This document shows, piece by piece, positions 3,495-7,312 of a stretch of 46,257 bases of DNA. Position 1 is the first letter of the stretch; each line of letters opens with the position of its first letter. Under the pieces are notes generated by a model. The model was not told where the DNA came from. It ran no database searches and saw only the letters and a program-made list of their open reading frames with translations. A program made the translations under genes and the position numbers. Origin of the DNA: Thiobacillus sp. (GTDB lineage: Bacteria > Pseudomonadota > Gammaproteobacteria > Burkholderiales > Thiobacillaceae); the NCBI GenBank assembly GCA_013335435.1, contig JAAXVP010000002.1, positions 1 to 46,257 on the forward strand, read 5' to 3'.

Positions 3495-3857
3495 TCAGTG
3501 CTTGCTGAGGCAGAAGCTGACCAGGGGATGGACGTATTCAGGGGCCTTGGCCTGGACCGGAGCAGGCGCCGCAACGACGACCGGAGCGGGAGCCGGAGCG
3601 GGTTCGACCACTACCACCGGAGCGGGAGCCGGAGCGGGTTCGACCACTACCACCGGGGCCGGCTTCGTCTCTGCCTTGCAGTCGGTATCGAACAGGCCTT
3701 GGCCGGGACAGCCGATAGTCCGGTACAAGTCGTAACCGGCGGTCATGCCAGTCGAACTGGCTTCATTGGCCGGGTTGTAGTAGGAATCGGCATGGGCGAT
3801 ACCGACAGCGGCAAAGCCGGCGAACAAGGTACTCAGAGCGATACGGGTGGCGTTCAT
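3495..3857 (-). CDS. secreted protein with Pro/Ala/Val repeats and an N-terminal region shared with the 4061-5302 product
   Basis: Signal peptide MNATRIALSTLFAGFAAVGIAHA; SYYNPANEASSTGMTAGYDLYRTIGCPGQGLFDTDCKAETKPAP; VVVVEPAPAPAP repeats. Confidence 0.75.
   Translation of the reverse strand: MNATRIALSTLFAGFAAVGIAHADSYYNPANEASSTGMTAGYDLYRTIGCPGQGLFDTDCKAETKPAPVVVVEPAPAPAPVVVVEPAPAPAPVVVAAPAPVQAKAPEYVHPLVSFCLSKH
3581..3652. repeat. 36-bp tandem repeat, two perfect copies
   Basis: ccggagcgggagccggagcgggttcgaccactacca at 3581-3616 and 3617-3652; encodes a 12-aa repeat on the - strand. Confidence 0.9.
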
Positions 3858-3997
3858 GGTTTACTCCTGTTTAGAAAAATCAAATATTCAAATATTGTAA
3901 GTTGCTACGCCATTGTAATGCGATAGTCGAGGTTCGCATCGACACAAAGTACGGATCGGCGTGGTGCTTGCGTACCACACGGTGGAGTTGTCACGAC

Positions 3998-4023
3998 AAA
4001 AAAATGCGCCCTTGCGGGCGCAT
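3998..4023 (-). terminator. Rho-independent terminator downstream of the 4061-5302 gene
   Basis: On - strand: ATGCGCCC-GCAA-GGGCGCAT followed by TTTTTTT. Confidence 0.8.
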
Positions 4024-4060
4024 TCAGGTTTCCTGTGCCAGGAAGCGGTGCAGGCACTGG

Positions 4061-5302
4061 TTACTTCATGCTGACGCCCAGGGCCTTGACGGTCTCGGCG
4101 GTGATGTAGCCGTCGGCCGGAAGTCCCTTGGCACGCTGGTAGGCCGTCACGGCATTCATGGTCTGGCTGTCCAGCTTGCCGGTGATGGCGGTGTTGTAGC
4201 CAGCCGCCTGCAAGGCCTTCTGGATTTCGGCGATCTTCTCCGGGGTGGCGTTGACGTCGCACAGGATCTGGGCCCAGTACTCCTGTGCCGGGCTGACCTG
4301 AACCTGTTGCTGCACGGTCGTGTACTCGGCGGGAACGGGAACGCGCTTTTCGGTCGCCGGGGTGACCATGGTCATGACTTCGCGCATATAGTCGACCGGC
4401 ACGACCTTGGTCACGGTGGTGGTGGGCTTCACCAGCTTGGTGATTTCACGCTCGCCGTACTCGGCCGGTACTTCGATGGTGCGGGTGGTCGCCGGGGTCT
4501 TCAGGACGGTCTTCTTGATCGTGGTGTATTCGGCCGGGATGTCTTCGTAGCGTACCGTGGCGGGGGTTTTCAGAACTTCACGGGTAACGGTCTGGTATTC
4601 GGCCGGAACCTCGACCAGGCAGAAAATCTCACCGGTCTTGGCATCGACCATCTGAACATTGCTTGCCGTGCCGGGTTTCCAGGTCGTGTAGGCCTCGCGG
4701 ACAAGTTTCCGCTCGGAAACGGTTTCATAGACGGCAGGCACTTCGATGGCCTTCTTGCTGGCCGGCTTGGCCACGACGCGTTCCTCGACGTTTTCATAGA
4801 CGGCAGGCACTTCCTCGATACGGGTGCCGGCCGGCTTCACCACGACGCGCTCCTTGACCGTCTCGTAGACGGCGGGCACGACTTCCTGGATTTCCTCGCT
4901 CAGGACGTGCACCTTCACGGCTTTGTAGACGGGCGGCACGATCTCGATGCGCTCACCGGCTTCCTTGGCCAATTTCTGGGTGCTCTCGGTACGGTATACC
5001 GGATCCTTGATAATCTTGGCATAGCACTCGCCAGGCTTGGCCTTGGGCATGTCGCCGGTGGCCTTGGCAGGGGCCGGTGCCGGTGCAGGCTTGGGCGTGT
5101 CGCCCTTGCAAACGGGATCGAGCAGGCCACGGCCCGGGCAGCCGATGGTCATGTACAAATCCTTGCCGACGGTGGTGCCGGTTGCGCTGGCAGCATTTGT
5201 CGGGTCGTAATACGGTGTGCCGGTCGCCTCGGCGCGGACAATGCCAGCGGAAGCGAGGGCGATAGTCAAAGAACTCGTGACCAGTAGGGCTGCGCGCATC
5301 AT
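4061..5302 (-). CDS. secreted repeat protein with VPAxY repeats and C-terminal peptidoglycan-binding-like domain
   Basis: Signal peptide; YYDPTNAASATGTTVGKDLYMTIGCPGRGLLDPVCKG; about nine VPAxYxTV repeats; C-terminal KIAEIQKALQAAGYNTAITGKLDSQTMNAVTAYQRAKGLPADGYITAETVKALGV resembles a PG_binding_1 domain. Confidence 0.8.
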   Translation of the reverse strand: MMRAALLVTSSLTIALASAGIVRAEATGTPYYDPTNAASATGTTVGKDLYMTIGCPGRGLLDPVCKGDTPKPAPAPAPAKATGDMPKAKPGECYAKIIKDPVYRTESTQKLAKEAGERIEIVPPVYKAVKVHVLSEEIQEVVPAVYETVKERVVVKPAGTRIEEVPAVYENVEERVVAKPASKKAIEVPAVYETVSERKLVREAYTTWKPGTASNVQMVDAKTGEIFCLVEVPAEYQTVTREVLKTPATVRYEDIPAEYTTIKKTVLKTPATTRTIEVPAEYGEREITKLVKPTTTVTKVVPVDYMREVMTMVTPATEKRVPVPAEYTTVQQQVQVSPAQEYWAQILCDVNATPEKIAEIQKALQAAGYNTAITGKLDSQTMNAVTAYQRAKGLPADGYITAETVKALGVSMK

Positions 5303-5555: not shown

Positions 5556-6116
5556 TTACTTGACCCGGCTGCGGTACTCGCCGGTACCGGTGTCGATTTC
5601 GATCTTGTCGCCGATTTCAACGAAGGCGGGAACGGAAATCGTGTGGCCGGTAGGCTTGATGCGGGCCGGCTTCATGACCTTGCCGGAGGTGTCGCCCTTG
5701 ACGGCGGGTTCGGTGTACTCGACCTCGCGCACCACGGAAGAGGGCATGTTGACGGTGATCGCCTTGCCTTCATAGAACACCACTTCGCAGGGCATGGCGT
5801 CTTCCAGGTAGTTCAGCATGTCGCCCAGGTTGTCGGGTTCGATCTCGTACTGGTTGTATTCGCTGTCCATGAACACGTACATGGGATCGGCGAAGTAGGA
5901 ATAGGTGCATTCCTTGCGGTCCAGGGTGACGGTGTCGAACTTCTCGTCGGCCTTGTACACGGTTTCCGTGCCGGCGCCTGTGAGCAGGTTCTTCATCTTC
6001 ATCTTGACCACGGAGGCGTTGCGGCCCGATTTGGAGAATTCGGCCTTCTGGACCACCAGCGGGTCGTTGCCCACCATGATGACGTTGCCGGCGCGGAGTT
6101 CCTGTGCGGTTTTCAT
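5556..6116 (-). CDS. efp: elongation factor P
   Basis: 186 aa; [35 protein letters not shown] with Arg at position 32; EF-P C-terminal [11 protein letters not shown]. Confidence 0.95.
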
Positions 6117-6163: not shown

Positions 6164-7312
6164 TTATTCCGATTTTTCATTACAGAATTTCACCAAATTG
6201 GCGGCCAGGTCGCCAACCCGATCCAGTCTGGTCTGCCAGTCGGCCGCTTGTTCCGGCCAACGGTCCCGGCGTGACCAGAATTCCGGCCAGGCCGGGCCGA
6301 CATCGCCATCATCGTTCCAAAGTAGCCAAAACCGCCGCAATGCCAGGGCATCGGCTTCGTCCAAACCGGTGCAATAAAGGTCGAGCAGGGCTTCGACCTT
6401 GGGTCGGTGGGCGGCGTCCTCCTGGCGGTAGGCCTGCCAGACCAGCGGCTTGCCGGCCCACATGGCGCGCACCAGGGAATCCTCGCCCCGGACGAAGTTG
6501 CCGTCGCACGCCCAGAGCAGGCGATCATAACTATCCTGGTCCAGCATCGGCAGGATATGGACGGTCAGCTTTCCACGCTCCAGGCGGTCACCGACCGACA
6601 CCCCGGCGCGGCCGAAGAACCGGTCCACGTCGGCCAATGCCTTGCCGGCCGGGACCAGGCAGCGAATCAGCTGTGTGCCGCTCGCCCAGGCGGCGAACAG
6701 ACTCTCGATGGCCAGGCTTTCGTAACTGAACAGGGACAGGCGTACTTCGTCCGGGCTTGCGGCCGGGATACCGAGCCCGCGCCAGAACGCATCGATGGCC
6801 CCGGCATCGGCCAGGAAGGCGTCACGCCGCCTGATCAACCAGGACTCCTTCAGTACGCCTCCGGTGCCCACGACATAGCCGGGCATGAAGAAATACTTGG
6901 TCAGGGGCAGGCGAGGGTGCGGCGACGGCAGCCCATGGCAGCCGGTCACCCAATCCTCCGCGCTCAGGTATTCCAGATTGAGCCAGAGCGGCTTGACCTG
7001 CCTTGAGGCCATAGCCTGCTCGTATTGTTCGGGCAAATGGCAGGCAAGCGCCTCGATCACGATTTCGGCGGGTTCGGCAGGAGGGAAAGGGGTGAGCCAG
7101 CGGCGAACCTCGACGCCACAGAAATTCTGGCTGTCCAGTGCCGGGACGATTTCCGGTCGGATATGGCGAAAACTTTCCAGATCGTCTACCCACAGGCGCA
7201 CCCGGATTCCGTATTCGGCAACCAGTTGGCGGGCCAGCCGCCAGGTGATGCCGATGTCACCGTAGTTGTCGATGACCGTGCAGAAGATATCCCAGCGCTG
7301 TCCGGCCGGCAT
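6164..7312 (-). CDS. earP: EF-P arginine rhamnosyltransferase EarP
   Basis: [25 protein letters not shown]-terminus; adjacent to an Arg32-type efp. Confidence 0.92.

Follow-up and report, generated by a model that had tools for sequence, protein, structure and literature searches.

OprF-type proteins consist of a beta-barrel, a TSP3-like linker and an OmpA domain. A betaproteobacterial porin was reportedly crystallised together with a periplasmic peptide by Zeth in 2000 (cited in PMC3706956). For RmpM, association of the N-terminal domain with the Omp85 complex, association of the protein with porins and binding of peptidoglycan by the C-terminal domain have been reported (PMC4226279). RmpM (protein III) of Neisseria and the RmpM-type OmpA proteins of other Burkholderiales families share their layout with the proteins described here: a signal peptide, a short two-cysteine N-terminal module, a Pro/Ala hinge and a peptidoglycan-binding C-terminal domain.

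The window analysed is a stretch of 46,257 nt from a Thiobacillus sp. (assembly GCA_013335435.1, contig JAAXVP010000002.1). Two minus-strand ORFs, both with an ATG start, encode proteins of 120 and 413 aa that carry such a module. Features of the pair are as follows:

3495..3857, minus strand: short module protein of 120 aa, with signal peptide, module, Pro/Ala/Val linker and C-terminal tail (ORF list; counterparts elsewhere in the genus)
3675..3782, minus strand: module of the 120-aa protein, YYNPAN...TIGCPGQGLFDTDCK, with cysteines at both invariant positions (module alignment)
4002..4025, minus strand: terminator-like hairpin and T run, directly 3' of the 413-aa gene and between both genes (from the sequence; terminators here are no more numerous than in shuffled sequence)
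4061..5302, minus strand: 413-aa protein, with signal peptide, module, Pro/Ala linker, VPxxY-type repeats and PG_binding_1 (ORF list, Pfam, predicted model)
4079..4240, minus strand: PG_binding_1 domain (PF01471), residues 355-408 of the 413-aa protein (Pfam, 5.4e-15)
4265..5026, minus strand: VPxxY-type repeat region, predicted all-beta, pLDDT block means ~52-82 (predicted model; homologues in the class)
5108..5212, minus strand: module of the 413-aa protein, YYDPTN...TIGCPGRGLLDPVC (module alignment)

The original prediction had drawn attention to near-identical N-terminal segments in these neighbouring secreted paralogues. Both segments it quoted are exact, and the two proteins align over 68 residues, signal peptide included, with 49% identity (BLASTP E=2e-19), a resemblance far above chance. 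Beyond the N-terminus, the PG_binding_1 domain of the longer protein scores 55.8 bits against a curated Pfam cut-off of 23. Pfam finds no PG_binding_1 in the 120-aa protein, in which neither Pfam nor NCBIfam recognises any domain; its C-terminal tail, YVHPLVSFCLSKH, contains a third cysteine. The OmpA-family domain (PF00691) that ends other module proteins is absent from both by Pfam. The hairpin between the genes suggests separate transcription, with a promoter of its own for the 120-aa gene, with the reservation that terminator counts here are at the level of shuffled sequence.

The module comprises 36 residues with two cysteines and lies directly behind the signal peptide. Eight positions (Y, P, T, T, G, C, P and the second C) are invariant in 114 of 114 modules (a 58-row alignment was also made), and both proteins of the window have this core. 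The two cysteines singled out in the original prediction are thus present in every module; the large scan cannot have selected for them, since neither of its patterns, YYDPxNxAS and GYDLYRTIG, contains a cysteine. The segment had been described as lacking a named domain, and searches bear this out: no match was found in Pfam or NCBIfam, and comparison with PDB sequences yielded nothing below E=1.5. The module is a real, conserved and uncatalogued element, and its profile is an addition absent from Pfam and NCBIfam. Codon comparison with a pair from the same genus (L013/L035) gave dN/dS values of ~0.36 for the short-protein module and ~0.24 for the long-protein module; by this estimate both modules of the pair are held by purifying selection.

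Predicted structures were obtained with AlphaFold. For 58 modules a single short helix was predicted over the GYDLYRTIG stretch, with a mean pLDDT of 67. In the model of the 413-aa protein (pTM 0.28) the first 82 residues lie below pLDDT 50, the repeat region is rich in beta structure and the PG_binding domain is helical. None of the hits of a fold search with this model reached E 0.001; those at the top were peptidoglycan-binding domains. Such a weak stand-alone fold would suit a docking peptide that becomes ordered once bound to its partner, without amounting to proof. The two invariant cysteines probably form an intrachain disulfide.

The module is not peculiar to this locus: four copies are present in the source genome, and the whole collection runs to about 110 distinct module proteins. 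Of the two outcomes that the original prediction had named as refuting it, a match to a known domain or a lack of homologues beyond the locus, neither was observed. Besides the 120-aa and 413-aa genes, one copy (C135) continues into TSP3-like repeats that reach the contig end and another (C459) into two OmpA domains. Among the source genome and 60 relatives, 24 of 61 genomes have a match at E 0.01. Twenty-three of these belong to the source family and represent eight genera; the remaining one, a weak match in another family of the order (G049), was not recovered with a larger profile. Some genomes of the source family have no module at all. In an order-wide sample the module occurs in 10 of 399 genomes, all from the source family, and in a phylum-wide sample of 399 genomes the source genome alone gave a convincing match; two phylum matches of 21-23 bits, spanning a third to half of the module, were taken as chance. 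Of 91 relatives returned by a scan of 84,980 species genomes, 80 were retained. The named records are mostly Thiobacillus, Parasulfuritortus (in Thiobacillaceae per NCBI) or Hydrogenophilales. Some module-bearing records are titled as other groups (Gallionellaceae, Rhizobium, Tepidiphilus and Sulfuriferula MAGs); at least two of these titles, the Gallionellaceae ones of L038 and L042, are probably misleading, since the neighbourhoods match the source gene order. As far as could be told, the module is confined to one family, Thiobacillaceae by named records.

What follows the module was classified by sequence pattern in 111 distinct carriers with a start codon, taken from overlapping collections from which only exact copies had been removed. 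Fifty have TSP3 repeats and an OmpA domain, 36 an OmpA domain, and 13 VPxxY repeats with PG_binding_1; two exceed 500 aa, and 10 are of other types, several of them truncated where a locus or contig stops. An OmpA end is therefore found in 86 of 111 carriers. Pfam confirmed OmpA, TSP_3, PG_binding_1, DUF11 and Big_1 in representative carriers, so that the module does occur on other C-termini (OmpA, TSP3-OmpA, PG_binding_1, DUF11/Big_1). In one protein (L018:693-1532) two tandem modules precede the OmpA domain. Two carriers (L030:1402-3126 and L064:3920-5608) combine the module with DUF11 (and Big_1) and have no known wall-binding domain by Pfam; two further long carriers (L221, L222) are DUF11-like by eye. 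No carrier N-terminus has a lipobox by pattern (0/111). The description of the C-termini as unrelated does not hold up: the 413-aa protein ends in PG_binding_1, and most other carriers likewise end in a peptidoglycan-binding domain. The TSP3-OmpA order of about 50 module proteins is that of OprF-type proteins, the difference being that the membrane-anchoring barrel would have given way to the short module.

A comparison was then made with what stands in the module's place elsewhere. Relatives of the VPxxY/PG_binding_1 part of the 413-aa protein occur in 46 other genomes of the class (47 of 369 in all), the best matches having ~37-55% identity. These proteins, from other Gammaproteobacteria (sensu GTDB), have the same repeat region and PG_binding_1 as the 413-aa protein but differ at the N-terminus. 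Among the 26 with a readable start none has the module; a lipobox is present in 14 by pattern (16 by eye), often followed by a coiled-coil-like stretch, and others start with a plain signal peptide. Between 10 and 12 of the 26 have neither lipobox nor module, indicating that an anchor in the N-terminal slot is not essential. The VPxxY-type repeats (4265-5026, minus strand, in the window) are predicted to be all-beta and often occur in lipoproteins.

OmpA proteins from other families of the order have an RmpM-type N-terminus, AYVxDxRG...GLCWRTGYWTPA...CD, followed by a Pro/Ala hinge. A profile of this N-terminus had no match in 12 genomes of the source family and matched four genomes from other families, three of which had fed the profile. 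Altogether, the slot comparison indicates that in the source family the module occupies the position held elsewhere by a lipid anchor or an RmpM-type dock. The Thiobacillaceae module differs from the RmpM type in having 9 residues between its cysteines, no CW motif and another conserved core, and in being fused also to PG_binding_1 and DUF11. Homology to the RmpM-type CW...C module was considered and rejected (hhalign probability 0.1%, one aligned column). The best reading is of a module RmpM-like in design and not detectably homologous. A search for papers on Thiobacillus OmpA proteins brought up nothing relevant.

We thus lean towards the view that the module is a periplasmic docking element tying peptidoglycan-binding proteins to an outer-membrane partner. 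Removal of the signal peptide would leave the 36-residue module at the mature N-terminus of exported envelope proteins. Probably closed by the Cys-Cys disulfide, it would attach to a partner, most likely a beta-barrel protein, on the periplasmic side of the outer membrane. The flexible Pro/Ala linker would cross the periplasm, and peptidoglycan would be gripped by the domain at the C-terminus (OmpA, TSP3-OmpA or PG_binding_1), so that the outer membrane would be tethered to the wall by carriers with no lipid or barrel anchor of their own. In favour of docking are the signal peptide before the module together with the lack of lipoboxes among the 111 carriers, the 86 OmpA and 13 VPxxY/PG_binding_1 ends, the lipobox (14 of 26) or RmpM-type module in the same slot elsewhere, the reported contacts of RmpM with the Omp85 complex at one end and peptidoglycan at the other (PMC4226279), and the purifying selection estimated for both modules. 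Against it count the absence of profile similarity to the RmpM-type module, the at least two carriers ending in DUF11/Big_1, which are not known as peptidoglycan binders, the family genomes devoid of the module, and the 10-12 VPxxY homologues having neither lipobox nor module. Porin co-occurrence was also examined as a pointer to the partner and gave no clean pattern; Porin_4 porins are present in family genomes both with and without the module, which likewise counts against docking.

Invariant cysteines would also fit an intermolecular disulfide or oligomerisation element, by which carriers would be cross-linked into a covalent envelope network rather than docked on a barrel, with the short protein and its third cysteine acting as linker or cap. 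The several carriers per genome, tandem pairs included, the two modules of L018 and the third cysteine in three short-protein tails fit this scheme. An intrachain loop is, however, the more natural reading of a cysteine pair that is never incomplete and is spaced ten positions apart, and the remaining invariant positions (Y, P, T, G) hint at a surface for recognition; we regard cross-linking as unlikely. Somewhat more doubtful still is a sorting or secretion tag sending carriers to the cell surface or medium, close to the surface targeting first proposed. Fusion to adhesin-like DUF11/Big_1 proteins, invariant residues right after the signal peptide and the lack of a predicted stable fold are in its favour, but in roughly nine of every ten carriers the C-terminus is OmpA or PG_binding_1, peptidoglycan binders active in the periplasm, and periplasmic docking therefore fits better. 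That the module is a plain structural N-cap with no specific partner, spread in one family by gene duplication and domain shuffling, would agree with its restriction to that family and its clustering by architecture on the tree, yet is improbable: that eight positions stay invariant whichever of several unrelated C-termini follows, and that dN/dS is far less than 1, both argue for a function residing in the module.

Docking can be taken further, as a tentative proposal that we hold with less assurance: an uncatalogued, transferable dock may have replaced the outer-membrane anchor slot in several unrelated wall-binding proteins (OmpA, TSP3-OmpA, VPxxY/PG_binding_1) of one family, with a common outer-membrane partner and a wall-free short version as regulator. 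If the docking reading is right, it would be a compact, testable case of bacteria re-inventing the link from outer membrane to cell wall, in which several protein families use one small module instead of a lipid, barrel or RmpM-type anchor. Roughly a hundred envelope proteins from Thiobacillus and its relatives, so far uncharacterised, would gain a likely place and role.

Three further genomes of the genus also encode a short protein, of 117-173 aa, next to the PG_binding gene. In the four genus genomes the pair lies between an amidohydrolase-like gene and efp, in swapped order in L038. In a tree of signal peptide plus module, which has few columns and only rough support values, the short proteins group with the PG_binding type (18 rows, support 98/89) and not with the OmpA type, save for one frameshifted row (L073). 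The tails of three of the four short proteins follow a common pattern that includes a third cysteine (YVHPLVSFC, YVNPFAFC, FIHPLAIYC). The fourth (L042) aligns to the PG_binding protein up to residue 118, beyond the module (34% across 164 columns, which take in the signal peptide and module), and this looks like a remnant. The 120-aa protein thus probably arose as a tandem duplicate of the 413-aa type that became truncated, which also speaks against calling the two C-termini unrelated. It would retain the dock without a wall-binding end, and might cap the docking site or compete for it.

In L073 the module gene, an ORF from ~690 on the plus strand, has an apparently frameshifted linker, and an ambiguous base is present. 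Upstream of the pair in the window, two minus-strand ORFs were named by eye as elongation factor P-like (5556-6116) and EarP-type rhamnosyltransferase-like (6164-7312); efp-like and EarP-like ORFs adjoin the module genes in 4/4 compared genomes of the genus.
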